A DNA stretch of 64,000 bases, taken from the NCBI RefSeq assembly GCF_021729075.1, contig NZ_JAJSAQ010000005.1, positions 62,001-126,000 of the forward strand, read 5' to 3'. Below are positions 44,217 through 64,000 of this stretch, piece by piece (the stretch's first letter is position 1; each line of letters begins with the position of its first letter). A program made the position numbers and the translations under genes. Source of the DNA: Microbulbifer guangxiensis (GTDB taxonomy: Bacteria > Pseudomonadota > Gammaproteobacteria > Pseudomonadales > Cellvibrionaceae). The notes beneath the pieces were generated by a model that did no database searches, was not told the DNA's origin, and saw only the letters and a program-made list of their open reading frames with translations.

Positions 44217-44226
44217 CCTTGCGCCC

Positions 44227-44802
44227 TCAGAAAATTCCTTGTTCAACAGTCACGATGTCGCCGGGGAGCAGTCGCGTATCCAGCTCTGCCTTGAATTTAC
44301 GTTTTTTCTCACCGAGACCCCGCTCAACGGTGATCTTTCCTTCCGAGGCGCGGGGCGTGAATCCACTCGCCATGGCCACAGCCTTGTTGATGGTGAGTCC
44401 CGGATGGAACGTATAACTTCCCGGGGTGGTCACCTCGCCGTTGATAAAGAAGGGCCGGTATTCGACCACGGTGACCTCGACACTGGGGTTGATCAGGTAA
44501 TCCCCCTTGAGGCCGGCCACAATTTTCCGCTCCAGCTCGGAAGTGTTGAGTCCACTGACACCGATCTCGCCGATAAACGGGTAGTTGATGACTCCGCTGT
44601 CGCCGAGATACATCTCCATGGTGAGATCTTCTTCACCGAACACGCGGATGGCGATGCGATCCCCCGAGTCCAGCTGATAGTTGGCAATTTCCAGTGGTGC
44701 CTTTGCTTTGCTGTCAGCCAGTGAAGGCAGAGGGGCCAGGGTCAATGCCGCCGCAATGAGCAGGAGGCGGGGGGTGGGTAGCTGCAACTTAGATTCCTTC
44801 AT
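44227..44802 (-). CDS. Polysaccharide export outer-membrane protein (OPX/Wza-like, short form)
   Basis: 191 residues from the ATG at 44802. A signal peptide (LLLIAAALTLAPLPSLA) is followed by the polysaccharide export domain (NYQLDSGDRIAIRVFGEED, about 45-63) and a SLBB domain (FFINGEVTTPGSYTF, about 123-137). There is no lipobox cysteine, so unlike Wza it is not acylated. It is about half the length of Wza and lacks the C-terminal membrane helix, the common short OPX type. The channel through the outer membrane is then probably the beta-barrel encoded by the next gene upstream (44837-46042). Confidence 0.93.
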   Translation of the reverse strand: MKESKLQLPTPRLLLIAAALTLAPLPSLADSKAKAPLEIANYQLDSGDRIAIRVFGEEDLTMEMYLGDSGVINYPFIGEIGVSGLNTSELERKIVAGLKGDYLINPSVEVTVVEYRPFFINGEVTTPGSYTFHPGLTINKAVAMASGFTPRASEGKITVERGLGEKKRKFKAELDTRLLPGDIVTVEQGIF

Positions 44803-44836
44803 CGGGGTAACACTCCAATAGGTAGTACGCGGCCTA

Positions 44837-48076: not shown

Positions 48077-48299
48077 TAGCAGGCGCCAGAACCACAGTCG
48101 TTGAAGCTGAATGGAACACCCCCGTAAACCAGGACAGCACTCGGCGGGATATCCCCCGTATTCCTCAGTGTAGTTCCACTATTGCGGTCTATCCTTGCTC
48201 CCAGTCCCTGTTTCCGGCGCAGCCGTTCTGGCACCGGTCACCCTTTTCAGCATTGCAAAACCCGGCCCGGTTGCCCGGCGCCATTCTGCGGAGGTTCCC

Positions 48300-49085
48300 A
48301 TGGATAGCCCTGCATTGCTGCGTCCGCGCGCAGCGTCGAACCTGCCGGTGCAGCCGGCGACGGTGGTTGAGGATGCGCTGAACCGCCCTGTGCGGCTGTT
48401 CTGCTTTCATCTTGACGACGACTCCGACATCAGCCTGACCGAGGCGCGGCGCTATCTGGACCGGGATGAACGTCAGCGGGCACGGGCTTTTGTCAGCAAC
48501 CGGGATGGAGAACGCTTCATAAGGGCCCATGGTTGCCTGCGCCGGATATTGGCATTGCAACTGAACCGCGAACCCGCGGCACTGGAATTCCGCTTGGGTC
48601 CTTACGGCCGACCTTACCTACCCGGCAGTGGTCTTTCCTTTAATATGTCCCATTCCGAGGGGTATGCCGTCTGTGCCCTGTCGCGATCTCGCTCAGTGGG
48701 CATCGACCTGGAAATCCACCAGCCCGCATTCTGCTTTGGCCCACTGCTTTCGATGGTGTTCACAGAGACAGAGCGGAACCACCTGAATGAAAAGTCCGGG
48801 GCGGAGCGGCGCAAACTGTTCTACGAATTCTGGACAGCAAAAGAGGCCCTGATGAAGCTGACCGGACTCGGGCTCAACCTGGCACCGGACACCATCGAGT
48901 TACTGTTAGCGGGTGACCGGCCATGTGGTTTCACCCGCCCGCTGATCGACGGGATGACGCTCCAGCACATCGACTGCGCGCCGTTCGCCGATACAACCCT
49001 GAGCTGTTATCTCGTGACTGCGCCGAGGCAACGGAACCGGAATATTGTCGGCATCACTGCAGGTAGTAATCAAGCGCCCCAATAA
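48300..49085 (+). CDS. 4'-phosphopantetheinyl transferase, Sfp type
   Basis: 261 residues from the ATG at 48300, with GGAGG 5 bases upstream. The family motifs are present: GPYGRPYL (about 100), FNMSHSEGYAVCA (about 116), SVGIDLEIHQ (about 133-142, magnesium-binding Asp and Glu) and FWTAKEALMKLTGLG (about 180-194). These enzymes attach the phosphopantetheine arm to the serine of carrier proteins of NRPS or polyketide synthases. The NRPS at the right end of the window needs such activation, so this gene ties the NRPS to the EPS locus. It is convergent with the asparagine-synthetase-like gene. Confidence 0.93.
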   Translation: MDSPALLRPRAASNLPVQPATVVEDALNRPVRLFCFHLDDDSDISLTEARRYLDRDERQRARAFVSNRDGERFIRAHGCLRRILALQLNREPAALEFRLGPYGRPYLPGSGLSFNMSHSEGYAVCALSRSRSVGIDLEIHQPAFCFGPLLSMVFTETERNHLNEKSGAERRKLFYEFWTAKEALMKLTGLGLNLAPDTIELLLAGDRPCGFTRPLIDGMTLQHIDCAPFADTTLSCYLVTAPRQRNRNIVGITAGSNQAPQ

Positions 49086-49221: not shown

Positions 49222-50718
49222 TCAGGTGAGATATCGGCGCAGCGGATTCTTGTACAGACCCAGTGGCTGGATCAGGTACTTGATCCTGTCACGCATCTTG
49301 ATGGAGAGGGCAAGGCGTATTTCCTGGCGCAGAAAAAACAGCTTGCCAAGCCCCTGGGCGCGGTTGAAGGGTATTCGTCCCAGCTCAGGCCACAGATAAT
49401 CCATCAGGGCCGGAATGACCTTCTTGGCCCCGCGATACTCCTCGGGTAGTGCCAGGATTTCCCGATAGTAATCGCCGCAGTTGAAGGGACTGATCGATGG
49501 CAGGGACAGCTCGTGCCCATAGAGTGTCGGCCCCGCCCACCCTGCAGCGCGAATTTCGGTATAGGCGAGCCCGAGTACATTGGCCACACTCATACCCTCC
49601 GGCAATCCTGCCAGCCATTTCTCCGCCAGAGCCAGCGTGTAAGGGTTCCTGACGATGCCCATACGCATCAGTAACCCCGCTGAGGACAGCCTGGTTAGTC
49701 TGGCATCGTCGGTATACCAGTAGGGTGCGCGCAGAGCCTCGCCACAGGTGCCGTTGATTTCATGGCTGTGGCTGTCGTGCACGCGGGCCGTCTTGCCCAT
49801 TGAAGCCACGGTATCTTCGACACAGTAGCCCACTCGGTGCAACCATCCCGCCAATTCCTCTTTCGATGGTTCGAGAAAGGGCAACTGGCGATAGTTCAGG
49901 TCAAACCGCCTGGCAATGTCAGCAGCTATATGGCAGTCCAGGCGACAACAGTAGCGATCCAGCACAACCGTCTGAAACTGCATCTGCTGGTGCCACTCGC
50001 GACTGGCCGCCAGCACAATACGGGAATCCCGGCCACCGGTCAGCTGTGCAATACGATGGCCATCATCCACCAGCGCCTTTACATTGCTGCGGATAAGTTC
50101 GCCGATGCGGGCAATGGCCTGCCTCGGCTCGACGTCCGGGTTGCCACAGCGACCTTCCCCACCGGGCAACGGAAACACCCGCTTTGCCTGCCAGCTGTTG
50201 AGACCCAGCGTATGATTGGGTAACAGCCGCTTGACGCCCAGGTAGGGCGTCAGCCCCAGTGGAAACCACACTTCCCCCTTACCGCCAGACAGGGCCCGGC
50301 GTACTTCCGGGTCTGGTTGCTGTTCCTCTAATAAAGAGAGCATGGTGGGAGTCGAGGCAAGTATCTGCTGCCCCGGGTTGTATACCACGCCCATCATGGC
50401 GGCCGGATCCGGGCGCACCAACACTTCCTCGCCCTCGACGCTGAAGCAGACGAAACGCCCGCACAGCTCGTCAAAGACGTCCGGCGCACCGTGCTCGATG
50501 CGGTGGGCAGTGATGGAATCACCGTCGTGCAGCAGCCGTCCGCGAAAAATCACCCAGCCAATCAGCAGGCTCAGCAGCCCGCCCCGCTCATCAAAGACCT
50601 TCAGGACCGGCACATCGCGGGCCACGGAAAGCCACCAGTCCTGCAACTGACAGTGCTTCCAGCCCGACAACTGGTTCAGCGGCCGCGCGGCCAGGGCAAA
50701 TTGCTTTGGGAACTCCAT
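49222..50718 (-). CDS. Asparagine-synthetase-like protein, glutaminase site missing
   Basis: 498 residues from the ATG at 50718 (AGAGA 6 bases upstream; a second ATG two codons earlier is possible). The synthetase domain has the ATP-pyrophosphatase motif as QLTGGRDSRIVLAA (about 225-238), the variant of SGGxDS seen in family members from polysaccharide loci. The N-terminus lacks the Cys2 nucleophile of glutamine-dependent enzymes, so ammonia is not taken from glutamine there. Enzymes of this kind form amide bonds on carboxylates. In an EPS locus a uronic acid is a possible acceptor and an amino compound a possible donor. Precise function unknown. Confidence 0.82.
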   Translation of the reverse strand: MEFPKQFALAARPLNQLSGWKHCQLQDWWLSVARDVPVLKVFDERGGLLSLLIGWVIFRGRLLHDGDSITAHRIEHGAPDVFDELCGRFVCFSVEGEEVLVRPDPAAMMGVVYNPGQQILASTPTMLSLLEEQQPDPEVRRALSGGKGEVWFPLGLTPYLGVKRLLPNHTLGLNSWQAKRVFPLPGGEGRCGNPDVEPRQAIARIGELIRSNVKALVDDGHRIAQLTGGRDSRIVLAASREWHQQMQFQTVVLDRYCCRLDCHIAADIARRFDLNYRQLPFLEPSKEELAGWLHRVGYCVEDTVASMGKTARVHDSHSHEINGTCGEALRAPYWYTDDARLTRLSSAGLLMRMGIVRNPYTLALAEKWLAGLPEGMSVANVLGLAYTEIRAAGWAGPTLYGHELSLPSISPFNCGDYYREILALPEEYRGAKKVIPALMDYLWPELGRIPFNRAQGLGKLFFLRQEIRLALSIKMRDRIKYLIQPLGLYKNPLRRYLT

Positions 50719-50767
50719 GCACATTCTCTGTTTCTTCGCTCGACCCCCAAACCGCTGAGTCCTGTCC

Positions 50768-52252
50768 TCACTGACCGAAGTTACCGGCCAGGCGTTCTGT
50801 CTCCCTGCGTCGCCGCAGGAAAGTCTTCAGCTCGCTGCGAACCGGCGCCTGTGCGAGCGCCAGCAACGCCGCAGCGAACACGGCAGCGATACCGGCCACC
50901 GCCAACTGTAATAGCCCAAAAGTCAGAGATGTGTCTGGTCGGGGCAGCAAATGTGGCACACCTGTGACAAAGACATAGCACAGTGCGCCACCCAGCAGCA
51001 GCTGACGCAGCAGGCTCCATACGAACCGGGCTTTGCCGCGCGCCATCTTCATCAGAGAGACAGAGACGGAGAGGGCAAGCAGCTCGCCACCGACACCAGT
51101 CGCGGCAATCCATGTCACCGGCGCCCCCTTCAGGGCGAGCAGGATGGCTGCAGCGAGGCTGATGCAGCGGAAGATATTGGCGATCATCGCGTTCTTGGTA
51201 TGGGCCTGGCTGTTGGCGATGACCGATGGCGCGATGCGGATGACCCGAACCGCCTGCATAGCCGCAAGCCAGGTGATGACGCCCACTGCGAGCAGGTACT
51301 GTTCACCAAAACTGAGGCGGATCAGGCCGTGGCCACCGATGCCAAAGAAAACCACCATCAGCACGGCAAAACCACAGCAGGCAATGAGAGCAAACTCGCC
51401 GCAGCGATAGAAGAGCGCCGGATTGTCGCGGCTGCGCGACAGTACCGGCATCAGCAGGTAAGCGCTCAACTTGGCAAAGATCAGTGTGGGTAACATGCAC
51501 AGTGAGAACGCGACGCTGTACCAGGCCAGTGTCTCTTTCGCGTAGAGGCTGGCGATAATGACCCGATCCCCCTGGAAGATACCGAACATCAGGAAGCCAT
51601 TCACCAGCAGCGGCCAACCAAATGCCAACTTGCGCTTCGCCAGCGGCCAGCACAGTGCCCAGCGGTAGGGCCGTTTTGCCAGCAGGTGGGAGAGCAGCAC
51701 ATGCATCATTGCCTGCAGCAGGATGACGGCCAGCATCACCCGGTAGTCTTCGAAAAATAATGAGGCACCGAAGGCCACGCCCAGTATCAATACCTGCGGT
51801 ATGGCATCGAACAGCGCAGTAGGCAGGAAATCCAGATTCCGCTGCCGCACGACAAAATCAAAGTTCATCAGGCCATGCAGAAGCGCCACAACCGCCAGCA
51901 ACTGGAATGCCCAGACTTTGTCGGCGAGATCAAACAACTGTGCCACCGGGGAGGCAATGGCAAACAGTATCGCGGCGATCAGCAATCCCTTCAGGAACTG
52001 CAGAAAATGCGCAGAACCGAGCATGTCATCGCTGTCGCCTTCCCGATCCTGGACCAGCACCCTGTCCAGGGCAAGGTTGCTGGTCATTTCCACCAGCGAG
52101 ATGGTCAGCACGAAGGTAGTGGCAATACCGAAATTCTCAAGACCGATATGCCTGGCAATGATTACATTGCGAAGAAAGGTACAGGCGGCCACCAGAGCCT
52201 GACTCACCGTCAGTACCGAGGCACCCTTTAATAAACTGAACCGCAGAGACAA
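50768..52252 (-). CDS. Wzx-type flippase (polysaccharide biosynthesis protein, MOP superfamily)
   Basis: 494 residues with 12-14 membrane segments. The N-terminus (LLKGASVLTVSQALVAA, then RHIGLENFGIATTFVLT) matches the oligosaccharide flippases that move lipid-linked repeat units to the periplasmic face. The middle FGWPLLVNGFLMFGIFQGD is the usual second-half landmark. It is divergent from pssD with 257 bases between them, and 49 bases upstream of the asparagine-synthetase-like gene on the same strand, so those two are probably co-transcribed. Confidence 0.92.
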   Translation of the reverse strand: MSLRFSLLKGASVLTVSQALVAACTFLRNVIIARHIGLENFGIATTFVLTISLVEMTSNLALDRVLVQDREGDSDDMLGSAHFLQFLKGLLIAAILFAIASPVAQLFDLADKVWAFQLLAVVALLHGLMNFDFVVRQRNLDFLPTALFDAIPQVLILGVAFGASLFFEDYRVMLAVILLQAMMHVLLSHLLAKRPYRWALCWPLAKRKLAFGWPLLVNGFLMFGIFQGDRVIIASLYAKETLAWYSVAFSLCMLPTLIFAKLSAYLLMPVLSRSRDNPALFYRCGEFALIACCGFAVLMVVFFGIGGHGLIRLSFGEQYLLAVGVITWLAAMQAVRVIRIAPSVIANSQAHTKNAMIANIFRCISLAAAILLALKGAPVTWIAATGVGGELLALSVSVSLMKMARGKARFVWSLLRQLLLGGALCYVFVTGVPHLLPRPDTSLTFGLLQLAVAGIAAVFAAALLALAQAPVRSELKTFLRRRRETERLAGNFGQ

Positions 52253-52509: not shown

Positions 52510-52959
52510 ATGGATACCAAAGTCTTGGCAGTGGCATCCCGTGGCGGGCACTGGAAGCAACTGATGAAGCTGGAGCCTGCATTTCGCGGCTGTGATATTC
52601 GCTTTGCCTCCACCAGTCATGACAACCCTGGCGTTGGAAAAACATCACACTACTTCTACCTGCCGGACGCGAACCGTCACACCCCGCTGAATGCGCTCTG
52701 GCTCCTGTGCACTTCTGCCTGGCTGGTCTTGAGGCTGCGCCCGGATGTGATCATTTCCACCGGCGCGCTGCCCGGTCTGAGCTGCATCCTGTGGGGGCGA
52801 CTGTTTGGCGCCCGCACGCTGTGGATTGACAGCATCGCCCATGCCGACCAGATGTCGCTGAGCGGGCGGGTGGCGCGCTATGTCGCAACCACTACTCTGT
52901 CGCAGTGGCCCGATCTCAGTCGTATGACAGGGGTGGAATACCGGGGTGCGGTTCTGTGA
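52510..52959 (+). CDS. pssD: PssD/Alg14-like glycosyltransferase membrane subunit
   Basis: 149 residues. The N-terminal VLAVASRGGHWKQLMKLEPA and RPDVIISTGALPGLSCILWG (about 78-97) are characteristic of Alg14-type subunits, which anchor the catalytic Alg13-type partner at the membrane and bind the acceptor lipid. In rhizobial PssD/PssE and pneumococcal Cps14F/G the pair adds the second sugar, glucuronic acid or galactose. The stop overlaps the next gene by 4 bases (GTGA), so both subunits are made in equal amounts. Confidence 0.92.
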   Translation: MDTKVLAVASRGGHWKQLMKLEPAFRGCDIRFASTSHDNPGVGKTSHYFYLPDANRHTPLNALWLLCTSAWLVLRLRPDVIISTGALPGLSCILWGRLFGARTLWIDSIAHADQMSLSGRVARYVATTTLSQWPDLSRMTGVEYRGAVL

Positions 52960-53468
52960 GCCTGATCCTCCTGACCACTGGCACACAGGCACCCTTCGAT
53001 CGCCTGGTCCGGGTCGTTGATCGCTGGGCGGCAAAAAATCCCGACGTCCACATCGTCGGCCAGATTGGCCGAGGAAATTACCGCCCCCGTCATATCGAGA
53101 CAAAACCTTTTCTCAACAATCGTGAATTTCGGTCCCTGGCCCACGACTGCACACTGATGCTGGCGCACGCCGGCATGGGCAGCGTGTTGTCGGCACTCGA
53201 ATACCGCAAACCACTGGTGATGATGCCCCGCGATCCCCAGCAGGGTGAATGCAACAGCGATCACCAGTTCGGCACGGCAAGACGGATGGCCACATTGCCA
53301 GGCGTTTACTGTGCCTACAATGCCGCCCAGCTGATTCACCGGCTTGACCATCATCGGCAACTCAACGCCCCGGAAGCCCTGCAACAGAGCCAACGGCAAC
53401 AAGAGCTGTCCCAGTTCATCGCCGGCTTCATAGGACGGCAAACACAACAAACTGCACCGGGAGGCTGA
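52956..53468 (+). CDS. pssE: PssE/Alg13-like glycosyltransferase catalytic subunit
   Basis: 170 residues from a GTG at 52956 that overlaps the pssD stop; a longer in-frame ATG start at 52905 would lie inside pssD and is less likely. It begins LILLTTGTQAPFDRLVR, and the GT28 C-terminal nucleotide-sugar binding region is visible as LMLAHAGMGSVLSALEYRKP (about 65-84) and VMMPRDPQQGECNSDHQ. It works with PssD as a two-subunit transferase on the lipid-linked intermediate after the initiating enzyme. Confidence 0.91.
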   Translation: MSLILLTTGTQAPFDRLVRVVDRWAAKNPDVHIVGQIGRGNYRPRHIETKPFLNNREFRSLAHDCTLMLAHAGMGSVLSALEYRKPLVMMPRDPQQGECNSDHQFGTARRMATLPGVYCAYNAAQLIHRLDHHRQLNAPEALQQSQRQQELSQFIAGFIGRQTQQTAPGG

Positions 53469-53509: not shown

Positions 53510-54799
53510 ATGACAACCGTGAGTCTGCACACCATGACCAGAATTTCCCTGCTTGGGGCTGCCCCGGATACCGGCAATCTTGGGGTCAACGCCCTTTCCC
53601 GTTCCACCATGCTGGGCATTGCCAGGCGGATCCCTGAGGCAGAAATCTGCATCTTCGACAACGGTCGCGGCCTGCGCCAGGGTGTGTATCAAGCAGGGCG
53701 CGACACAGTGGCCTACAGGCTCTGTGGGCTGAGCAACAGTCGTCGTTTCTACCGCCCGGAAAGCCTGGCCCATATGCGCCTGTCGACGCTGTTGCCCGGT
53801 CTTTCCAATCCCGGCATGGACCTGCTCAGCTCCTCCCAGGCAGTGCTGGATATCAGTGGTGGAGACAGCTTCACCGACCTTTATGGCCCCAAGCGTTTTT
53901 CGCTCATCACGGCACCCAAGCAACTAGTGCTGGAGAAAAAGCGCCGCCTGATTCTGCTTCCACAAACCTACGGCCCGTTTCGCTCACCGGCCCGGCGCAA
54001 AATTGCAGAGGATATCCTGCGACGCAGCCACCGCGCCTGGGCGCGGGATCGTGACAGTTTCGAACGCATGGCAGAACTGCTCGGCAGCGATCTCGATCCA
54101 ACCCGGCACAAGTGCGGGGTGGATGTCGCTTTCCTGTTGCCTACCACCCAACCGGCGGGGATGGATGCGGGACTGATCAGTTGGCTGAACGACTCACCCC
54201 ACGACCTGATCGGGCTCAATATCAGTGGGCTGATTTACAACAGCCCCCACGAAGCCATCCAGCGCTATGGCCTTAAGGCCGACTATCGCGCGACGGTGCA
54301 AACCCTGTTGAAGCGTTTCCTGCGCGAAACCGATGCCCGGATCCTGCTCGTGCCACACGTTCACGCACCCAGCGGCCACCCGGAGTCAGACCGTGATGCC
54401 TGCCGGCACCTGCTGCAGACCCTCGCCCCGACTGACCGGGAGCGGGTTTACCTGCTCGAGGATCGCCTCGATGAATCCGGTATCAAGTGGGTAATAGCCC
54501 AGGTGGACTGGTTCTGTGGCACTCGTATGCACGCCACCATCGCGGCGCTCTCCAGCGGGGTACCCACGACCACGATTTCCTACAGCGACAAGGCCGTCGG
54601 TGTATTCGACAGCTGCGGCCAGCGCAGTGAGGTTTTCGATCCGCGCCAGCTCGATACGGTGACATTGTCAGAAAATGTGTTCGACGCATTCCAACGGCGC
54701 GACAGGATTAAACAGTCACTGCAGCAGAAATTACCGGATGTGCTGGCACAGGCCACGAGGCAGATGGATGAAATTGCCGAGAGTTGTGTATCAGCCTGA
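53510..54799 (+). CDS. Polysaccharide pyruvyl transferase family protein
   Basis: 429 residues; start at 53510 is uncertain because no good ribosome-binding site is seen, and ATG 53534 is an alternative. RISLLGAAPDTGNLGVNALS at the N-terminus, DISGGDSFTDLYG near 105, LILLPQTYGPF near 145 and WFCGTRMHATIAALSSGVP (about 335-353) are the family landmarks. Members add pyruvate from phosphoenolpyruvate as a ketal to a sugar, giving the polymer negative charge. Its neighbour is an FrhB-like protein, a frequent partner of this family in polysaccharide loci. Confidence 0.88.
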   Translation: MTTVSLHTMTRISLLGAAPDTGNLGVNALSRSTMLGIARRIPEAEICIFDNGRGLRQGVYQAGRDTVAYRLCGLSNSRRFYRPESLAHMRLSTLLPGLSNPGMDLLSSSQAVLDISGGDSFTDLYGPKRFSLITAPKQLVLEKKRRLILLPQTYGPFRSPARRKIAEDILRRSHRAWARDRDSFERMAELLGSDLDPTRHKCGVDVAFLLPTTQPAGMDAGLISWLNDSPHDLIGLNISGLIYNSPHEAIQRYGLKADYRATVQTLLKRFLRETDARILLVPHVHAPSGHPESDRDACRHLLQTLAPTDRERVYLLEDRLDESGIKWVIAQVDWFCGTRMHATIAALSSGVPTTTISYSDKAVGVFDSCGQRSEVFDPRQLDTVTLSENVFDAFQRRDRIKQSLQQKLPDVLAQATRQMDEIAESCVSA

Positions 54800-54942: not shown

Positions 54943-56292
54943 TTGCAGTCGATGCAAAAAATAAAGACCATCGAGGAAGTGCGGCGCAGTCATCTCTGCA
55001 CCGGCTGTGGCGCCTGCGCCTCCCTGGAGCCACAACGGTACGCCATGGTGGATGTTGTGGAGGAGGGCCGCCGGCCTGTGGTGCGCAAGGATGCGCCAGC
55101 CGAGACCGGGGTTGCCCTGGCGGCCTGCCCGGGTACCGGCCTGCAGCATGACTACGATGTCTCCGACAGTGGACTTCTGCCGGAGCTGGGTCCCGCCTGG
55201 GGACCGGTGTACCGGGTCATCGAAGGCCACGCGGCAGACTCCGATATCCGCTTCGCCGGATCCAGCGGCGGCGCCGCAACGGCACTTGCGCTGTTCTGCC
55301 TGGAACAGCGCGGCATGCACGGAGTGCTCCACACGGCCGCCGACCCGGAGCGGCCCTACCTCAACCGTACGGTATTCAGCCGCGATCGTGACGCCCTCCT
55401 TGCCACCACCGGTTCCCGCTATGCCCCATCCAGCCCCTGCGAGGGACTGGACCAGATTGCTGCTGCCGATGGTCCCTGCGTATTTGTCGGCAAGCCCTGC
55501 GACGTGGCGGCACTGAGGCGGGCAGAGAAACACTCGCCAGCCCTGCGTGAACACACTGGTCTGACGATCGCTTTTTTCTGTGCCGGGGTACCCAGCACCT
55601 CGGCAACGCTGGCACTGGCGGAGCGTGAGGGCGCGGCAGCTGCCGGCGATATCAACGCACTGCGCTATCGGGGTAACGGCTGGCCGGGCCACTGGACCCT
55701 CGACTATCAGGACCGGGAGGACAACCGGCAGTCGAGCCAGATGACCTACGCCGAATCCTGGCACTTCCTGCAAAAGCACCGCCAGTGGCGCTGTTATGTA
55801 TGCGCGGATCACACCGGTGAGTTCGCGGATATCGCCGTTGGCGATCCCTGGCACCGGGACATCGAGCCCGACGAGATGGGCAGCTCGCTGATCGTGGCGC
55901 GCACCCGACGCGGGCTGGCACTGCTGCAGGCCGCACTGGATGCCGGTTACCTGGAAGAGGTCGCCGACGATCCCAGCCTCTTGCCCCGCTCCCAGCCCAA
56001 CCTGATCGGCGCCCGGGGAAATCTCTGGGCACGCCTGAGTGTACTGCGGCTTCTCGGTGCCGCCACACCCAACTATTCGGGCTTCGCCCTGTTTCCCTTC
56101 TGGCTGAGCGAGCTGGGGATCGTAGACAAGGTGCGGTCCCTGCTCGGCACTGTCCGGCGAATCTTCCGCAAGCGGCTGCTGCATCCGGTCCCGGACAGCG
56201 GGGATACCGTTCCTGCCGCATCGCCGGTACCCAGGCACTCCCGGCTGAATGCGGCCGACCAATCGACACAGGAGGTCGATATCCATGTTTGA
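54943..56292 (+). CDS. FrhB-like iron-sulfur protein (coenzyme F420 hydrogenase/dehydrogenase beta-subunit family)
   Basis: 449 residues from the TTG at 54943, with GGAG 4 bases upstream; an ATG 3 codons later (54952) is the alternative. Cysteine motifs occur in HLCTGCGACAS (about 20-30) and RCYVCADHTGEFADIAVGDPW (about 285, shown here only in part: CYVCADHTGEFADI). The family binds FAD and Fe-S clusters. F420 is not expected in this bacterium, and homologues in EPS loci beside pyruvyl transferases probably carry out an unassigned redox step on a sugar. The C-terminal 45 residues are low in conservation and rich in Pro/Ser. Confidence 0.85.
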   Translation: MQSMQKIKTIEEVRRSHLCTGCGACASLEPQRYAMVDVVEEGRRPVVRKDAPAETGVALAACPGTGLQHDYDVSDSGLLPELGPAWGPVYRVIEGHAADSDIRFAGSSGGAATALALFCLEQRGMHGVLHTAADPERPYLNRTVFSRDRDALLATTGSRYAPSSPCEGLDQIAAADGPCVFVGKPCDVAALRRAEKHSPALREHTGLTIAFFCAGVPSTSATLALAEREGAAAAGDINALRYRGNGWPGHWTLDYQDREDNRQSSQMTYAESWHFLQKHRQWRCYVCADHTGEFADIAVGDPWHRDIEPDEMGSSLIVARTRRGLALLQAALDAGYLEEVADDPSLLPRSQPNLIGARGNLWARLSVLRLLGAATPNYSGFALFPFWLSELGIVDKVRSLLGTVRRIFRKRLLHPVPDSGDTVPAASPVPRHSRLNAADQSTQEVDIHV

Positions 56293-57640
56293 ACGCCAGA
56301 TGCCGGATCATTTCGGTGGTGCCCTCTGGGCCGACCAGACACTGGCACACCCCGTGGGTATTGCCGCCCTCATTGCCGCACTGGTCGCACTCGTGGTCCT
56401 GCCACGGCGCTATGCCATGCTGCCGCTGATATTGATTGCGGTGGCACTGCCCGGAGCCCAGCGCATCGCCGTGCTGACCCTCGATTTCACTTTTATCCGC
56501 ATCGTGATCCTCGCCACACTGGCCCTGGCTGCCGCCCGCGGCCATACCCGTGGCCTCAGGCTGGGCCTGCCGGACCTGCTGATCGGGCTCTGGGTTTCCT
56601 GGGGAATGATTGCCGGCGGCATCCTGAGCGGCGGATTCAGTGGGGTGATCAGTGGCGCCGGTGGTGCCATTGACACCTTTGGTGCCTATCTCGTCGGGCG
56701 AATCTATATCCGCTCGCTGGCAGACCTGCGACACCTGTTGCTGTGGCTGTCACTGATTGCCATCCCGATGCTGGCTTTCTTCCTGGTGGAACAGTTCACG
56801 GGCCGCAACCTGTTCGGTTTTTTCGGCGGGGTACCCGAAGAAACCATGGTGCGCAATGGCCGGCTGCGCGCGCAGGGTCCCTTCTCTCACCCCTTGATGG
56901 CGGGCGTTTTCTGGGCCAGCCTGCTGCCCTGCATCGCGGCCCTGTGGATGGCCCGCGCCGGCAGCCGCCCGGGTCTGGTACTGGCCATGGCCTGCATGGT
57001 TCTGATCGTGGCCAATACCGCTTCCAGCACCCCGATCGTGGCGGTGCTGCTGGGTATCGGCGGCATGGGGGTCTATCTGTTGCGCCGCTACCTGCGCCTG
57101 ATGGTGGCTGGCGGGTTGGCCTGCCTGGTTGGCCTGCACATGGTGATGGACAAGCCGGTCTGGCACCTCATATCGAGAATTGACCTTTCCAACGGCTCCA
57201 CTGGCTGGCATCGCTATAACCTGATCCAACAGTCCATCAATCACTTCAACGAATGGTGGGCCTTTGGAACCAAGTCGACCGGCCACTGGGGCTGGGGGCT
57301 GCAGGACATCACCAACCAGTATGTCCTCGAAGGCGTCAGTGGCGGCCTGCTGCAGTTACTGCTGTTCGTCGCCCTGCTCACCTGTGTCTTCCTCCGTCTC
57401 GGGCGCACCTTGCGGCGCACCCGCAACCGCGCCGCTTACTGGCTGCTCTGGGGTGTGGGGGTCAGCCTGTTCGTGCACTGCATGAGTTTCCTCGCGGTGT
57501 CATATTTCGGCCAGCTGGTCTGCCTGTTCTTCATCTTTCTTGGCAGTGCGGTGGCCGTCTCCGAGCGCAGCCCCTCCACAGTGCGCAGACGGGAGCACGC
57601 CATGGCGCATCCGGGTACGGCCATCGGGAGTCCCGGTTGA
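56285..57640 (+). CDS. Wzy-type polymerase / O-antigen ligase-like membrane protein
   Basis: 451 residues from the ATG at 56285 (CAGGAGG upstream), overlapping the FrhB-like gene by 8 bases. About 10-11 membrane segments are predicted; the periplasmic loop after residue 190 contains RLRAQGPFSHPLMAGVF, the Wzy_C/WaaL hallmark with its conserved Arg and His, and a later loop has GTKSTGHWGWGLQDITNQYV. It would polymerise the flipped repeat units in the periplasm. There is no other polymerase candidate in the locus. Confidence 0.88.
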   Translation: MFERQMPDHFGGALWADQTLAHPVGIAALIAALVALVVLPRRYAMLPLILIAVALPGAQRIAVLTLDFTFIRIVILATLALAAARGHTRGLRLGLPDLLIGLWVSWGMIAGGILSGGFSGVISGAGGAIDTFGAYLVGRIYIRSLADLRHLLLWLSLIAIPMLAFFLVEQFTGRNLFGFFGGVPEETMVRNGRLRAQGPFSHPLMAGVFWASLLPCIAALWMARAGSRPGLVLAMACMVLIVANTASSTPIVAVLLGIGGMGVYLLRRYLRLMVAGGLACLVGLHMVMDKPVWHLISRIDLSNGSTGWHRYNLIQQSINHFNEWWAFGTKSTGHWGWGLQDITNQYVLEGVSGGLLQLLLFVALLTCVFLRLGRTLRRTRNRAAYWLLWGVGVSLFVHCMSFLAVSYFGQLVCLFFIFLGSAVAVSERSPSTVRRREHAMAHPGTAIGSPG

Positions 57641-58593
57641 TGTCTGCAGACGACATGGAGGTCCTGCCACCGATCAATATCGTGATCGTCTGCTACAACT
57701 GCGGCCGCGATATCCTCAAGCTGGTGGGCGATCTTCGCAGCGGTGACTATCCCACCGACAGGTTGTCGCTGACCATTGTCGACAATGCTTCCGCCGACGA
57801 TTCGGTGGAGCTGCTGCGTCGTATCGAGGGCATACCTTCGGTCCTGATCGAGGCCGGGCGCAACCTGGGCTTCGGTGCCGGTTGCAATCTGGCGGTGCGC
57901 CATATTGCCGGTGATGGGCTCATCCTGTTCCTGAATCCGGATGTGCGCCTCCGTCGCGACAGCCTCACCGCATTGATCCGCGGCTTTTACCAGTATCCTC
58001 TCAGCGGGATCTGGGGAGGCCTCACCTGCAATGCGGATGGCGAGCCCGATGGCAAGAGCGCCTGGCGGGAACCATCCCTGTTGGGACTGGCCGCCTGGAG
58101 CTTTTTCCTCGATGCCGCGCTGCGACCGTTTGGGTTCCCCGGAGTCGAAGCATACTCGCCCCGCGCGTTGCTGCAGGGCCCCCGGGTAGATGCAGTCTCC
58201 GGCTGTTTTTTCCTGATCGACAATGATCTGTTTCATCGGCTCGGCGGGTTCGATGAACGTTTTTTCCTGTATTCCGAGGAAATCGACCTGTGCCGGCGGG
58301 CGCGACTGCTCGGGGCGCAACCACAGATTATTCCGGCGGCCCAGGTGATGCACACCGGCAGTGTCACGCTCACCAGCGAGAACAAGCTCAGACACCTGTA
58401 TTACTCGAAGCTGCTCTACTTTCGCAAGCACTGGTCACCGGTCCCCTTCCGGATCGCCCGCATGGTGTTGAACGTGGGCACGCTTCTGCGGCTCACGGCA
58501 CTCTCTGTCCTGTCACCCCTACGGCGTGACTTCAATCACCGGCGCAAAGCCTGGTGGAATTTTTTCAAGCAACAGCTCAGCTGGAAATTCTGA
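57640..58593 (+). CDS. Family 2 glycosyltransferase (rhamnosyltransferase-like)
   Basis: 317 residues from the ATG at 57640, sharing one base with the preceding stop. The GT-A fold shows INIVIVCYNCGRDILKLVGD (about 12-31), LTIVDNASADDSVELL (about 42), NLGFGAGCNLAV and LFLNPDVRL (about 100, the DxD-equivalent), then DAVSGCFFLIDNDLFHRLGG and DERFFLYSEEIDLCRRA (about 205-221). The last match is typical of dTDP-rhamnosyltransferases, but the sugar is not certain. It acts on the lipid-linked repeat unit at the cytoplasmic face. Tightly coupled to wzy and to the next transferase. Confidence 0.92.
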   Translation: MSADDMEVLPPINIVIVCYNCGRDILKLVGDLRSGDYPTDRLSLTIVDNASADDSVELLRRIEGIPSVLIEAGRNLGFGAGCNLAVRHIAGDGLILFLNPDVRLRRDSLTALIRGFYQYPLSGIWGGLTCNADGEPDGKSAWREPSLLGLAAWSFFLDAALRPFGFPGVEAYSPRALLQGPRVDAVSGCFFLIDNDLFHRLGGFDERFFLYSEEIDLCRRARLLGAQPQIIPAAQVMHTGSVTLTSENKLRHLYYSKLLYFRKHWSPVPFRIARMVLNVGTLLRLTALSVLSPLRRDFNHRRKAWWNFFKQQLSWKF

Positions 58594-58594
58594 T

Positions 58595-59437
58595 ATGTCG
58601 GAGTATCTTCCTGCGGTGATCATTCCCGCGCACAATGAAGAATTATCGATTGCGACACTACTCCGTGCCCTGATGCCGGGTGTGCAGAAGGAACTCTACA
58701 CCATCACTGTGGCATGCAACGGTTGCTCCGACCGCACTGCGGAGATCGTCCGCTATCATTTTCCCCAGGTGTGCTGCATTGAGCAGGAGCAGGCCTCGAA
58801 GGTGGCCGCACTCAACGCCGCCGAGAATGCCGACCTGGGTTTCCCCCGTGTTTACATCGATGCCGATGTCGTTATCAGCAGCAGCGCCGTGGAAACGCTG
58901 ATTGATACCTGTCGGGAGTCCAGGGAACCGACGGTGGTGGCACCGCGGGCCGTACCAAAGAATGAAGGCTGCGAATGGCTGGTGCGGACCTACTATCTGG
59001 CATGGCAAAAGACCATCTTTTTCCAGCAGCACGGCTTCGGTTCCGGTGTCTACGCCCTGAATCGGCCCGCACGGGAAAAGTTTGAGCGCTTCCCGAACCT
59101 GATTTCCGATGACGGCTTCGTGCGCCAGATCCTGAACTACGACAATATCCGTGTTGTGGAGTCCGCCAAGAGCCTGGTCAAATCGCCCCGTGATCTCGCC
59201 GGACTGATCCGCATCAAGACCCGTAGCAAGCTCGGCAGCCTGGAAATCAGCAACAGTGAAGTCAAGATGGGCAGCGGACCGCAGGTCAACCAGCGGTTCC
59301 TGCAGCGCCCCACGATCCTGGAGCGGCTGGTTTATGGTGGCGTGAACCTGCTGGCGCTGCTGAATGCGCGTCGCCTGATCCGCAAGCGCGGCCGTGCCTA
59401 CTGGCTGCGCGATGAGACTTCCCGCCATTCGGCCTGA
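58595..59437 (+). CDS. Family 2 glycosyltransferase
   Basis: 280 residues from the ATG at 58595, one base after the previous stop. AVIIPAHNEELSIATLLRAL (about 7-26), VACNGCSDRTAEIV (about 39), VYIDADVVISSSAVE (about 87-101, DAD metal motif), and GFGSGVYALNR with LISDDGFVRQIL (about 150-182, the ED-type base region) are standard for GT2 enzymes. No membrane segment was seen. It adds one of the sugars of the repeat unit. It is the last plus-strand gene before the convergent NRPS. Confidence 0.9.
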   Translation: MSEYLPAVIIPAHNEELSIATLLRALMPGVQKELYTITVACNGCSDRTAEIVRYHFPQVCCIEQEQASKVAALNAAENADLGFPRVYIDADVVISSSAVETLIDTCRESREPTVVAPRAVPKNEGCEWLVRTYYLAWQKTIFFQQHGFGSGVYALNRPAREKFERFPNLISDDGFVRQILNYDNIRVVESAKSLVKSPRDLAGLIRIKTRSKLGSLEISNSEVKMGSGPQVNQRFLQRPTILERLVYGGVNLLALLNARRLIRKRGRAYWLRDETSRHSA

Positions 59438-59619: not shown

Positions 59620-59656
59620 ATACCGGCGCCCTCAGGGGGCGCCGGTATTTTCTTCA
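59620..59656. terminator. Bidirectional rho-independent terminator
   Basis: ATACCGGCGCC (59620-59630) pairs with GGCGCCGGTAT (59638-59648), loop about 7 bases, followed by TTTTCTTC on the plus strand; on the minus strand the stem is followed by CGTATTTTC. It ends both the plus-strand glycosyltransferase transcript and the minus-strand NRPS transcript. The stem begins 6 bases after the NRPS stop. Confidence 0.85.
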
Positions 59657-62600
59657 GTGTACCCGGTCTCCCTCCAAAGGACGCGTGAACTCCCCGCGGG
59701 CATGGAACAGATTGCGGTCGGACATCTCCCACCATTGCAGCGATTCCAGCTTGGCGATGGTTTCCCGTGAGAAACGATAGCGCACCACCTGCGCCGGGTA
59801 GCCGGCAACAATCGCATAGGGCGGCACGTCCTCCACCACCACGGCACCGGCGGCGATGACCGCACCGTTGCCGATCTTGCGTGTGGGATACAGGATCTTG
59901 GCACCATCACCTATCCACACGTCATTTCCCACTTCGATGGTCACCCGGTCCAACTCGTAGCCGGTACTGAAGCCAAGTCCCTTGAAATAGAACAGGCCGT
60001 GGGTCGAGAGTGTATTGCGCGGGTGGTCCGCATTCTGGAAATTCACCGTGCGGTAAATGGTGCAGTACTTACCGATCCGGGTGCTGTTTTTCAGCCGCAC
60101 CGAATCGAATGGCACACTGGAGAAATCCGCCACGTGAATATCATGGTGTTTGCGGAAGAGCTTGCGCATGGTGACGCTGAACGTCGAGCCACCCTCCAGT
60201 TTCAGGATCAGACGCTGCAGCAGGCTGCGGAACCAGCCACGGCGAATACCATACAGGGGGGCGAGCCATTTCTTCGCGAACGCGGACTCTCGCATTTTCA
60301 TGCCGTGGGGAAAGTCCGGCAGGTCGACCGCTTCTTTCTTCTCACGCACTGCGTCCAGAATCGCGTCCACCTGTCGACTGGCTTTTTCATCCAGGGCGGC
60401 CCGTTCCATGACCTGCTGTTCGGACTCTCCATCACGGAACGCAGCAATGGCACCGCTCAGCTGTCGGATACTGGCAAAATCAAACAGTAAGGTCGGTGGC
60501 AGGCTCAGACCGAGGTTTTGGTTGAGCCGCGCGATGGCATGGATGGCCGCCAGCGAGTGGCCACCGAGATCAAAGAAACTGGCTTCATCTGATTCCACCG
60601 CGGTTTTCAGCACATCGCGGAATACGCCGCGCACGACCTGCTCGATATCGGCGGGAGCGCGGCTGCTGGGAAGCTCCGCCTCCGACTCGGCTGCGCTGTC
60701 TGCAGCCTGCAGGGGAGCATCCTGCTGCTCCTGTGCGGACCCTTGTGACCGAGCCGGTTGTTCCTCTCTCGTCACTGCCTGTTCCGGTTCCGGTGCCCGG
60801 ACCACGGGCGGTGTTTCTGTGATTGCCGCCGTGTCTGTCAGCGGCGTTTTCACCGCCACGGGTATTTTGGGCCTGGCTTTCGTCACTTTTTTCTCTGGTT
60901 CTGCAACTGGTTGTTCCCGGCGGCTCTCGACCGATTCGCAAGCCGGTTCTTCTGGGCTTGTTGCCGTCGGGGTCGTCGTCGCAGCTCCTGCCTGTGCTGC
61001 CGATTCGTCGCCGGTCGGTGCGGGAAAAGCCTTGCGATCCACTTTGCCGTTGGCCGTCATCGGGAAGGCATCAAGGGTAACGAAATAGGCCGGCACCATA
61101 TATTCCGGTAGCGTCTTCCGCAGCCGCGCCCGCAATGCGGGAATGTCCACGGCCTGATTCGCCGCCGGGATCAGGTAGGCGGCCAGGTACTGGCTGCCGT
61201 AATCATCCCGATGGGCGATCACCACAGCGCGGCGGATATCATCACCGGCGAGCGCCTTCTCGATCTCACCGAGCTCGACCCGGAAGCCGCGGATCTTCAC
61301 CTGGTGGTCAATGCGGCCGAGGAACTCCAGCCGCCCATCCGCCCGCTCTGCCACCAGGTCGCCAGTGCGATAGAGGCGACCATCCGGGTCCTGGTTACTG
61401 GCAAAGAATTTTTCGGCAGTGAGCTGCTCCCGGTTGCGATAACCCCGCGCCAGGCCGGCGCCGCCAATACACAGCTCTCCCGGCACTCCAGCAGGCTGCG
61501 GTACGCCAGCGGCATTGGTGACATAAAAGCGCGTGTTGGCTATCGGCGCACCGACGAAGCGCGCATCTTCCGGGGCCCGTATGCGCCCGGCCGCCGACCA
61601 GATGGTGGTTTCCGTTGGACCGTACAGATTCCAGACTTCAAGACCGTGTTCCAGCAGTCGTGTTGCGAGATCCTCACCCATCGCCTCACCGCCGCAGAAT
61701 ACCCGTACACCCGGCTGGCCCTGCCAGCCGAAGTCGAGCAGCATCCGCCAGGTGGCCGGAGTGGCCTGCATGACGGTGACATTGTGTTTTTCAATCGCGT
61801 CGCGGATTCTCTGCGGATCCATACAGCCGCGCCGGTCCTGAACGACCACACTGCCACCACTCACCAGTGGCACAAAAATCTCCAGCATGGCGATGTCGAA
61901 GCACAGGGTTGTCACTGCCAGCAGGCGGTCCTCGGCGGTAAAGCCCGGTTCCTGCTGCATGGCGCAAAGGAAATTGACCAGACTGCGATGGGTGATCTCC
62001 ACGCCTTTCGGCCGGCCGGTGGAACCCGAGGTATAGATGACATAAGCCAGGTCATCCCCGCTCGCCAGCGGCTGCAGGTTGCGGCAACGATCCCGGGCGA
62101 GGATTTCATCCGGCTCGGGCGGCAGCAGTATTTCACCGCTGAAATCTGCGAAGCGCTCTTTCAGCTCCTGCGAGGTAATCAGGAACCCTGCACCGGAATC
62201 CTCCAGCATGTAGTCCAGGCGCTCCGGTGGGAAATGTGGATCCAGTGGCACATAGGCGCCACCGGCTTTCCACACCGCCAGCAGAGCGGTGACCATGGCG
62301 ATATCCCGATCGATACAGACCGCCACCAGCTCCCCGGGGTTCAGCCCCTGGTCGATCAGGTCGCGCGCCAGGGTATTGGCCAACCGGTTGAGCGCGCTGT
62401 AGGTGAGCTGCTCCGCACCGGCGATCACGGCGATGTCTTCCGGCTGGTGGGTCGCCATGCGCTCGAACAGCTGCGCAGTGGTTTCCTGCACCGGCAGCGT
62501 GCGAGCGGTCCGTTGCGCCTGTTCGCGCAACCGGCCACGTTCGGTGATGCCAATCAGCGGCAGCTCGGCCACGGGTTGGTCGGGCATCCCGACCGCCCCC

Positions 62601-64000
62601 TCGAGCAGGCGGATGAAGTGCTGTGACATCCGCTCGATGGTGTCCCGCTCGAACCGGGCCCGGCGGTATTCAATGCTGCACGCCACTTCATCGGATTTTT
62701 CCAACACAGACAGCGTCAGGTCGAATTTGGATCCGCCGCTATGAATCTCCAGAGGCTTGACCCTCAGCCCGGGGATCGACCAGGGGTCCCCATCCATCTG
62801 CCGGTGAATGAACAGGTGCTGGAACAGTGGCGCTGTCCCGCCGCGACGATCCGGGTTCAGGTCGGCCACCACCCGTTCGAAGGGCACCTGGTCATTGGAG
62901 AAAGCATCAATGGTGGTTCCACGCACACGTGACAGCAGGTCGCGGAAGCTCGGGGTATCGGCAAAGTCGGTGCGTAACACCAGGGTGTTGATGAACAGCC
63001 CGATCATGCCCTCGGTCTGGGTCAACGGGCGGCGCCCGGTTGGGGTACCGACGAGGATATCGTCCTGGCCGGAGTAGCGGTGTAGCAGCAATTGCCAGAC
63101 CGCCAGCAAGACCATGAAACCGGTCACCGACTCCTGTTTTGCCAGTGTTTTTGCCGCCGCCCACAGGGCAACTGGCACCTTGAAGCGCACCAGTCCGCCG
63201 CTAAAATCCGGCTTGTCAGTGGGTGGGTGGTCAGCCGGCAGGTCGAGGGTTTCCGGCGCGCCGGACAGCTGGTCGCGCCAGAATGCCAGCTGCTGCTCTA
63301 CCTGCGGGCTTTGAGCCAGGTGCTGCTCCCACTGGGCGTAATCGGCGAACTGGAAGTCCAGCGGCGGCATGGTCAGTGCGCGCCCTTCGCTGAATGCCGC
63401 ATAGCTTTTCGCCAGCTCGTGGAAAAAGATCGCGGACGACCAGATGTTATCGTAAATGATGTGGTTGAAGACCAGCGCCAACACCGCTGCCCGGTCCCCG
63501 ACACGTACCAGGGTACTGCGGAACAGGGGTCCACTGGCGAGGTCCTGGCGCTCTTCCAGCAGGCCGCGGCAGATCTGCATGGCCCGCTTGGCACGCTCGG
63601 TTTTTGCCAGCGCGCGCAGGTCGATCACATTCAGCCGGTACTCCGCGGCGGGCAGGATTTCCTGACGCGGCCCCTCGTCGTCACTGGGGAAACGGCTGCG
63701 CAGGATCGCATGGCGCCCGACCGCCTGGCCGATTGCCTGCTCCAGGGCCGCCAGGTTCAGCTCCCCCTCCAGGTACACCGTGTTGGAGATGTTGTAGGCG
63801 GCACCGCCACCGTAGAGCTGGTCGGCCAGCCACATTCTCATCTGCGCCGATGACAGCGGCAGGCGGACGTCTTCCGCGACATGACTGAGCTGGGGGAGGG
63901 CGTCCTCTTCTTCCAGTGTCGGTGCCGCTTCGATGGCAGCCGCCAGCTCCTTGAGATCCCGCGCTTCAAAAATCGCCCGCACGGAGAGATCCGCGGAGAA
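59654..64000 (-). CDS. NRPS: [PCP end]-C-A-linker-PCP fused to a left-handed beta-helix acyltransferase (N-terminus outside the window)
   Basis: 1448 visible residues, open to the right edge; the first residues (FSADLSVRAIFEARDL) are the end of an upstream carrier domain. Condensation domain about 45-495, with NHIIYDN replacing the canonical HHxxxDG (second His and Asp kept). Adenylation domain about 510-990 (YTSGSTGRPKG, YGPTETT, YRTGDLV, NGKVDRK). Specificity residues read by eye are D I L T F G L I W K, 8 of 10 as in the glycine code DILQLGLIWK. A Pro/Ala/Glu-rich linker of about 120 residues follows, then a PCP (FFDLGGHSLAAIH, Ser about 1149). The C-terminus (about 1240-1448) is a hexapeptide-repeat acyltransferase with His in NADHPRNTLSTHG and no thioesterase. 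Lies in an EPS locus with a PPTase. Confidence 0.93.
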   Translation of the reverse strand, partial: FSADLSVRAIFEARDLKELAAAIEAAPTLEEEDALPQLSHVAEDVRLPLSSAQMRMWLADQLYGGGAAYNISNTVYLEGELNLAALEQAIGQAVGRHAILRSRFPSDDEGPRQEILPAAEYRLNVIDLRALAKTERAKRAMQICRGLLEERQDLASGPLFRSTLVRVGDRAAVLALVFNHIIYDNIWSSAIFFHELAKSYAAFSEGRALTMPPLDFQFADYAQWEQHLAQSPQVEQQLAFWRDQLSGAPETLDLPADHPPTDKPDFSGGLVRFKVPVALWAAAKTLAKQESVTGFMVLLAVWQLLLHRYSGQDDILVGTPTGRRPLTQTEGMIGLFINTLVLRTDFADTPSFRDLLSRVRGTTIDAFSNDQVPFERVVADLNPDRRGGTAPLFQHLFIHRQMDGDPWSIPGLRVKPLEIHSGGSKFDLTLSVLEKSDEVACSIEYRRARFERDTIERMSQHFIRLLEGAVGMPDQPVAELPLIGITERGRLREQAQRTARTLPVQETTAQLFERMATHQPEDIAVIAGAEQLTYSALNRLANTLARDLIDQGLNPGELVAVCIDRDIAMVTALLAVWKAGGAYVPLDPHFPPERLDYMLEDSGAGFLITSQELKERFADFSGEILLPPEPDEILARDRCRNLQPLASGDDLAYVIYTSGSTGRPKGVEITHRSLVNFLCAMQQEPGFTAEDRLLAVTTLCFDIAMLEIFVPLVSGGSVVVQDRRGCMDPQRIRDAIEKHNVTVMQATPATWRMLLDFGWQGQPGVRVFCGGEAMGEDLATRLLEHGLEVWNLYGPTETTIWSAAGRIRAPEDARFVGAPIANTRFYVTNAAGVPQPAGVPGELCIGGAGLARGYRNREQLTAEKFFASNQDPDGRLYRTGDLVAERADGRLEFLGRIDHQVKIRGFRVELGEIEKALAGDDIRRAVVIAHRDDYGSQYLAAYLIPAANQAVDIPALRARLRKTLPEYMVPAYFVTLDAFPMTANGKVDRKAFPAPTGDESAAQAGAATTTPTATSPEEPACESVESRREQPVAEPEKKVTKARPKIPVAVKTPLTDTAAITETPPVVRAPEPEQAVTREEQPARSQGSAQEQQDAPLQAADSAAESEAELPSSRAPADIEQVVRGVFRDVLKTAVESDEASFFDLGGHSLAAIHAIARLNQNLGLSLPPTLLFDFASIRQLSGAIAAFRDGESEQQVMERAALDEKASRQVDAILDAVREKKEAVDLPDFPHGMKMRESAFAKKWLAPLYGIRRGWFRSLLQRLILKLEGGSTFSVTMRKLFRKHHDIHVADFSSVPFDSVRLKNSTRIGKYCTIYRTVNFQNADHPRNTLSTHGLFYFKGLGFSTGYELDRVTIEVGNDVWIGDGAKILYPTRKIGNGAVIAAGAVVVEDVPPYAIVAGYPAQVVRYRFSRETIAKLESLQWWEMSDRNLFHARGEFTRPLEGDRVH

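Follow-up and report, generated by a model that had tools for sequence, protein, structure and literature searches.

LpxA and LpxD are left-handed beta-helix (LbH) enzymes that accept acyl carriers and take an acyl chain from the carrier to a UDP-sugar without being fused to that carrier, and LbH acyltransferases bind CoA through the pantetheine arm. Vat, CatB and ApmA use acetyl-CoA as the donor and antibiotics as the acceptors. Mycobacterial Pap acyltransferases, which have another fold, are not fused and give lipid products, move polyketide chains to trehalose. In the Dlt system, an adenylating enzyme and a carrier deliver an amino acid to teichoic acid. AlmG belongs to an acyltransferase type other than LbH. 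AlmEFG of Vibrio cholerae puts glycine and diglycine on lipid A via a carrier (PMC4790380), and an ACP and a PglD-like transferase (WfpD/WfpG) encoded in an O-antigen locus of Flavobacterium psychrophilum are predicted to add 3,5-dihydroxyhexanoate to a sugar (PMC6519341).

The locus considered here lies in a 64,000-nucleotide stretch of Microbulbifer guangxiensis DNA (the window). The proposed system is a form of carrier-based glycan acylation that uses a modular assembly line in fused form; carrier-based acylation itself is known. It resembles AlmEFG, in which an adenylating enzyme and a carrier deliver an amino acid to a surface glycolipid (PMC4790380), but AlmEFG consists of discrete small proteins acting on lipid A, whereas the adenylating enzyme, carrier and acyltransferase are not discrete proteins here: a single modular NRPS with condensation and a fused terminal LbH, all in one polypeptide, is encoded in an exopolysaccharide (EPS) locus. 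It is like WfpD/WfpG in the predicted movement of a carrier-bound acyl chain, specific to the locus, to a repeat-unit sugar nucleotide (PMC6519341), although that system uses discrete type-II fatty-acid-like proteins and a PglD homologue, without an NRPS or a fusion. The LbH shares its fold and a conserved His with Vat, CatB and ApmA, but those enzymes are freestanding and their curated cut-offs are missed here. It differs from LpxA in being carrier-fused and in matching the LpxA models weakly (28.5 vs 226 bits and 26.7 vs 231 bits, both missed), and the likeness to Pap is that an assembly-line product would be offloaded onto a sugar. The explanation that we consider likely is that the NRPS hangs a small peptide on a sugar of the EPS repeat unit through release by the LbH, before export.

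The window holds a single open frame at 59654-64000 on the minus strand, which is cut by the window end. The initial annotation had described a final module with C, A and PCP domains in which a hexapeptide-repeat LbH replaces the thioesterase, and had proposed that the contig be extended to the right; Pfam and structure bore out the former, and reading the contig past the window showed that the frame belongs to an intact NRPS gene of 2,029 codons with its stop, of which it forms the 3' portion; in this gene an initiating A-PCP module, outside the first view, precedes the C-A-PCP module. The longest NRPS frame on the contig has 2,059 residues, and its Met 32, an ATG at window-equivalent 65740 that is kept in 14/14 aligned homologues, is the likely translation start. 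The relevant features are as follows.

59654 to 64000, minus strand: NRPS, 3' part (A1-PCP1-C-A2-linker-PCP2-LbH); the gene extends to window-equivalent 65740
59657 to 60316, minus strand: predicted LbH acyltransferase domain, last 220 residues, Vat/CatB-type fold, invariant His in ADHPRNTLSTH
60446 to 60640, minus strand: PCP2, terminal PP-binding domain with FDLGGHSL (contig 122446-122640)
60650 to 61030, minus strand: low-complexity A2-PCP2 linker of variable length, boundaries approximate

The domain order is A1-PCP1-C-A2-linker-PCP2-LbH, and the Pfam scan of the protein gave two AMP-binding domains, one Condensation domain, two PP-binding domains, one sub-threshold Hexapep stretch and no thioesterase. 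The core motifs YTSGSTGxPKG and FDLGGHSL are intact, the adenylation, condensation and carrier domains stand in module order, and the condensation motif is NHIIYDN here and HHIIYDN in several homologues. Chance or mis-framing is ruled out by a 2,000-residue frame with ordered domains that is conserved in 15 genomes. This NRPS carries the only condensation domain in the whole genome. Upstream of it, likewise outside the first view, lies a gene for a CheR-like methyltransferase (65737-66546, 269 residues), whose stop codon overlaps the NRPS ATG by ATGA, and the two are therefore probably co-translated.

An LbH was found at the end of a long frame in 13 of 144 family genomes, and carriers of the NRPS-LbH comprise 12 of the 48 genus (Microbulbifer) genomes, the window's own included, and one genome of another genus (G007), whose version of 4,582 residues has four A, four C and five PCP domains. 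When 390 genomes of the order were sampled, two genomes of one further genus (Ketobacter-type) were added, and among 369 genomes sampled from the class and 398 from the phylum, searched with E limits of 1e-30 and 1e-18, the matches listed contained no further fusion; the fusion is thus rare. As for possible distant fusions, the carrier domain was absent by Pfam from the long frames at G1113 and G1002 (960 and 966 residues from the start codon), G1214 and G214. The first three gave Hexapep-type matches alone and G214 gave a sulfotransferase with Hexapep, and all four were rejected. Frames G962 and G1166 were read by eye alone, and G968 and others of 400-500 residues were left out.

The terminal domain of ~220 residues matches the acetyltransferases Vat, CatB and ApmA when a profile of 13 domains is compared with the PDB (best E 3e-27). 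A structure model built on 38 relatives had a pLDDT of 92.9, and Foldseek ranked the same three enzymes first (E 2e-11, TM 0.64). The His of ADHPRNTLSTH, which had been pointed out at the outset, is invariant in all 38 aligned relatives, of which 10 are fused and 28 freestanding. However, the domain missed the cut-offs of the curated models for Vat (91 bits, cut-off 300), CatB (77.5 bits, cut-off 350) and ApmA (67 bits, cut-off 550), as well as that of TIGR03570 (NeuD/PglB/VioB; 41 bits, cut-off 160.8) and that of its best NCBIfam match, TIGR03308, a phosphonate-associated hexapeptide transferase family (114 bits, cut-off 201.65). By sequence and structure model, it is an LbH acyltransferase of Vat/CatB type that is related to the Vat/CatB resistance enzymes without belonging to them. 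The nearest solved relatives, Vat, CatB and ApmA, use acetyl-CoA, and the LbH could acetylate instead of offloading. A structure prediction of PCP2-LbH from 13 sequences was poor (pLDDT 63.4) and was set aside.

In 15/15 NRPSs (14 tabulated and that of G007), 118-119 residues separate the PCP2 serine from the LEGG motif that marks the start of the LbH, and LEGG lies 181 residues from the C-terminus in all 15. Across 14 NRPSs the spacing varies by 4 residues for A1-PCP1, 13 for PCP1-C, 14 for C-A2 and 133 for A2-PCP2, the last ranging from 386 to 519 residues. Because the spacing is fixed while the A2-PCP2 linker varies, PCP2 and the LbH appear to be constructed as a single unit that hangs on a free tether. 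Furthermore, both Ketobacter-type genomes encode a KS-AT-ACP-LbH polyketide synthase, in which the carrier serine lies 291 residues from the end, compared with 299 to 300 in the NRPSs. The synthase of G368 (1,233 residues) is on the same contig as the NRPS, where a C-A-PCP protein, a hydrolase and the synthase follow ~20 to 24 kb further, with asparagine-synthase, acyltransferase and alginate-lyase family genes nearby; the synthase of G310 (1,228 residues), for which a Pfam scan was made, is on a different contig from its NRPS. The LbH therefore ends both an NRPS and a PKS, which fits a release domain.

These observations bear on the least improbable of the alternatives, namely that the LbH is an ordinary acetyl-CoA O- or N-acetyltransferase acting on the PCP-bound chain or on a sugar and fused for convenience, with release by hydrolysis or another enzyme and a product that may or may not reach the polysaccharide. 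The top sequence and fold matches are indeed CoA-dependent antibiotic acetyltransferases, and freestanding LbH relatives that occur in the Ketobacter-type loci are, by family, probably acetyl transferases. However, we consider this unlikely, since neither a thioesterase, a reductase nor a second terminal C was detected by Pfam in the 14 of 15 NRPSs scanned (the G310 protein, which spans two loci, was left out), and the LbH stands at its fixed distance from the terminal carrier in 15/15 and recurs in two polyketide synthases with a slightly shorter connector. Elsewhere in the window's genome PF00975 gave five matches, two of them over the cut-off and none on the NRPS contig. The simplest interpretation is that the chain is moved to a sugar, because an LbH fold stands behind the carrier in a sugar-polymer locus and there is no other release domain.

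With regard to the units of the chain, the A2 code, read by alignment, is DILQ[L/F]G[L/M]IW in 15/15 NRPSs, which we take to be a glycine code, and A2 would thus load glycine. The A1 code is IAYH[I/T]GGT[M/I] in 12/15, and the other three have Met-Gly at the first two positions, so that position 235 is Ile or Met and not Asp in all 15. Asp at this position of A domains binds the alpha-amino group, and another residue argues against an alpha-amino acid; the first unit is therefore probably something other than an alpha-amino acid. Our guess for the side chain is glycine in ester or amide linkage, with a methylated acid as its cap. Nothing was found in support of a lipid part, as implied by the lipopeptide in the first suggestion of an amino-acid- or lipopeptide-decorated polysaccharide.

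The surrounding genes are listed below, together with the two genes that flank the block.

39799 to 41184: beta-lactamase-family gene, flank of the block
41191 to 41952, minus strand: CpsB/CapC family protein, the block's last gene before the beta-lactamase-family gene
41955 to 44246, minus strand: Wzc-like chain-length/kinase protein
44227 to 44904, minus strand: OPX polysaccharide export protein
44837 to 46042, minus strand: outer-membrane beta-barrel (BBP2)
46170 to 47585, minus strand: initiating sugar-phosphate transferase
48195 to 49085, plus strand: Sfp-like phosphopantetheinyl transferase (PPTase), by length and domain match
49222 to 50724, minus strand: protein without a known family, with homologues in 11/13 family loci
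50768 to 52252, minus strand: Wzx flippase
52510 to 52959, plus strand: PssD-like glycosyltransferase subunit (Alg14)
52830 to 53468, plus strand: PssE-like glycosyltransferase subunit (Glyco_tran_28_C), coordinates of the open frame and not of the gene start
53510 to 54799, plus strand: polysaccharide pyruvyl transferase family protein
54943 to 56292, plus strand: FrhB_FdhB_C family protein
56249 to 57640, plus strand: Wzy-like polymerase, weak Wzy_C match
57637 to 58593, plus strand: GT2 glycosyltransferase
58595 to 59437, plus strand: GT2 glycosyltransferase
66798 to 67772: DUF533 gene, other flank of the block

The full Wzx/Wzy EPS locus that had been described next to the NRPS is present: the initiating transferase, glycosyltransferases (the PssD/PssE-like pair and the GT2s), Wzx, Wzc and OPX occur together with a Wzy-like protein whose Wzy_C match is weak (E 0.0058). 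Among the scanned genes around the NRPS, none could be recognised as an amino-sugar gene. Besides PCP1 and PCP2, one further PP-binding domain, on an AcpP-like frame of 79 residues, was detected in the genome at E 0.001, which makes three in all. Of the two PPTase genes in the genome, one is AcpS-like by length and the other is the Sfp-like one in the EPS locus, the only one of its type found. The closest relatives, G075 and G067, likewise have two PPTases each, one of them inside the locus. PPTase relatives occur in 6/13 family loci; none was detected in the examined region of the other seven family genomes, all of the genus, which have PPTase candidates elsewhere.

When the 13 family loci were compared by tblastn within 35-39 kb (the whole window for the window's own genome), all 13 carriers had the NRPS-LbH among homologous EPS genes, with protein identities of ~32 to 92 percent. 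Relatives of both GT2s, the Wzy-like protein, the pyruvyl transferase and Wzx were found in 13/13 loci, those of the initiating transferase, OPX, Wzc and the methyltransferase in 12/13 each, that of the FrhB-like protein in 11/13, and those of PssD and PssE in 5/13. The 12 genus genomes share one gene order, which is rearranged in G007; the 38.7 kb examined there held no relatives of the initiating transferase, OPX, Wzc and the methyltransferase. In the Ketobacter-type genome G368 the methyltransferase and NRPS genes again form a pair, surrounded by PssD/E-like, GT, Wzy_C, Wzz, Wzc-like, pyruvyl transferase, FrhB-like and Wzx genes, and G310 has nearly the same gene set by similarity, with two initiating transferases in addition. 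Thus, with regard to whether the homologues occur mainly outside polysaccharide loci, the initial annotation's own counter-case, 15/15 NRPS-LbH genes sit among polysaccharide genes (13/13 in the family and 2/2 Ketobacter-type), and the methyltransferase is present in 14/15 of these loci. Wzy belongs to the components of such a locus that are most repeat-unit-specific, and the 13 of 144 genomes with a match to the Wzy-like protein at E 1e-10 or better are exactly those that carry the NRPS-LbH. The chance of this co-occurrence would be ~1e-18 if the genomes were independent, which they are not: the 13 genomes share ancestry, and the co-occurrence does not amount to 13 independent events.

The beta-lactamase-family and DUF533 genes enclose the block in the window's genome, 25.6 kb apart, and a gene of the sodium/calcium exchanger family lies beyond the block. 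The flank was examined, over up to 20 kb each, in 12 hand-chosen genomes of the 36 in the genus without the NRPS. In five of them the DUF533 and beta-lactamase-family genes are adjacent, with ~40 to 500 bases between the matches, in three the next gene out comes after the exchanger-family gene, and in four the far side was unrecognised or a contig end; block genes were found at this site in none of the 12 in the stretch examined. Seven Microbulbifer carriers (G064, G065, G066, G068, G069, G084 and G100) have the NRPS and EPS genes without these flanks, and in the single-contig carriers G064, G069 and G084 the exchanger-family gene is more than 700 kb from the block. Since the flanks are joined in genomes lacking the block and the block occurs without the flanks in other carriers, the NRPS and EPS genes were gained, lost and moved together. 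The link to EPS goes beyond adjacency, and in the explanation that we prefer the NRPS is likely to belong to the EPS block as a dedicated component. The GC content is 0.603 in the block against 0.602 and 0.612 in the flanks, and a foreign base composition of the block was not seen.

This linkage also makes it improbable that the NRPS makes a free small molecule, such as a signal, a siderophore-like compound or an antimicrobial, with the EPS genes kept alongside for co-regulation or co-inheritance. Marine Microbulbifer do make the NRPS products bulbiferamides and pseudobulbiferamides, according to a review (PMC11285056), and the NRPS is transcribed against the facing glycosyltransferase genes. 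In contrast, the exact co-occurrence with the Wzy-like protein, the absence of the block as a whole, its presence at more than one chromosomal site and the same linkage in a second genus speak against a free product. Neither a thioesterase nor a typical exporter of NRPS products was recognised among the scanned neighbour genes, and the exchanger-family gene beyond the block occurs in each of the 48 genus genomes, whether or not the genome carries the NRPS. A role like that of AlmEFG, by which V. cholerae moves carrier-bound glycine to lipid A (PMC4790380), with lipid A, a different lipid or a protein as the surface acceptor, is very improbable, since the NRPS gene tracks the Wzy-like EPS locus and the terminal domain here is an LbH.

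The decoration of EPS proposed by the initial annotation is thus supported, and we infer that the transfer is to a sugar of the repeat unit. In the mechanism that we envisage, the PPTase of the block would convert PCP1 and PCP2 to the holo form, A1 would load a carboxylic acid other than an alpha-amino acid, the CheR-like enzyme may methylate this first unit or the product, and C would join the first unit to the glycine loaded by A2. The LbH would then act as the release domain, taking the two-unit chain from PCP2 at a fixed distance and transferring it, on the cytoplasmic side, to a hydroxyl (or an amine) of either a sugar precursor or the repeat unit linked to undecaprenyl, after which Wzx and Wzy would export and polymerise the decorated unit. 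The steps that we infer are the PCP targets of the PPTase, glycine and the kind of first unit, the role of the methyltransferase, the LbH as a transferase from the PCP, and the acceptor. Because NRPSs are cytoplasmic, the acceptor would be a sugar nucleotide or a lipid-linked repeat unit before Wzx. In a broader sense, it is on balance plausible that the LbH represents a new class of release domain, which passes both NRPS and PKS products from the carrier to a lipid-linked sugar and thereby decorates a Wzx/Wzy polysaccharide, with the four-A version of G007 adding a longer peptide.

If this is right, modular assembly lines and Wzx/Wzy polysaccharides would be joined, and peptide or polyketide side chains on exopolysaccharides could be predicted, and perhaps programmed, in a genetically simple way. 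The carrier-LbH would be a further candidate among the few NRPS/PKS termination types. It would also explain NRPS genes that are filed as orphan secondary-metabolite clusters, whose product would be polymer-bound and missed by small-molecule extraction. The bulbiferamides and pseudobulbiferamides were the only isolated Microbulbifer peptidic products at the date of the review of Microbulbifer chemistry, in the text of which the word 'exopolysaccharide' is absent (PMC11285056), and no biochemical or structural data on any Microbulbifer polysaccharide were found. A literature search of partial coverage returned no report of an NRPS or a carrier-LbH fusion used for polysaccharide decoration, and a peptide assembly line that decorates a polysaccharide appears to be a new use of NRPS. 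In a pattern scan of genome contigs, which is not a census and in which one of the two patterns is a general PCP motif, at least three loci among the 80 matches listed match most of the query, in Microbulbifer flavimaris, M. hainanensis and Ketobacter sp. BinB_TS13_700.

The gene immediately upstream of the NRPS encodes a CheR-like methyltransferase, which adjoins the NRPS in 14 of the 15 loci compared, with relatives 60 to 91 percent identical; no relative was found in G007, the carrier from another genus of the family. Within the NRPS, a low-complexity linker separates A2 from PCP2, and the distance between these two domains varies across species by up to 133 residues, while that from PCP2 to the LbH domain is constant.

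Window-equivalent 65737-66546 (L002:6737-7546), CheR-like methyltransferase
Window 60650-61030 (approximate), low-complexity linker, A2 to PCP2

The NRPS of G007 is a larger version that ends in LbH as in the window's NRPS, and one of its A-domain codes, DAMFLGVVI, is not glycine-like.

L048:4907-18655, G007 NRPS, 4,582 residues, four A, four C and five PCP domains, LbH end
L048:22-1638, additional NRPS-like stretch, G007

Each of the two Ketobacter-type genomes has a polyketide synthase that ends in LbH. Ahead of it come genes for a hydrolase-family protein and for a C-A-PCP protein, which were scanned in G368. The NRPS, the polysaccharide genes and this synthase lie on one contig in G368.

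L151:16995-20000 continued in L152:1-696, KS-AT-ACP-LbH synthase, G368
L155:5436-9122, KS-AT-ACP-LbH synthase, G310

In G214, from the wider sample, a sulfotransferase is fused to a Hexapep domain, again of this LbH type (L156:9826-11967).

Two further proteins were noted in the polysaccharide loci.

L033:9-1277, GNAT-type Acetyltransf_6 protein downstream of the NRPS, G068 (Pfam, tested in this genome only)
Window 49222-50724, 500-residue protein, relatives in 11 of the 13 family loci

In two other Microbulbifer genomes (G100 and G064), frames similar to the Acetyltransf_6 gene separate the NRPS from the GT2 gene, and none was seen at the corresponding place in the window's genome. The product of this gene may perhaps provide a second acyl modification. 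The 500-residue protein was without a Pfam family match, and its TGGRDSR motif is reminiscent of asparagine-synthetase-like enzymes.

Beyond the block, three consecutive genes (L002:12842-17683) resemble, by eye, those of TldD/PmbA-type proteins, a candidate identity, and two of the three are near-duplicates.
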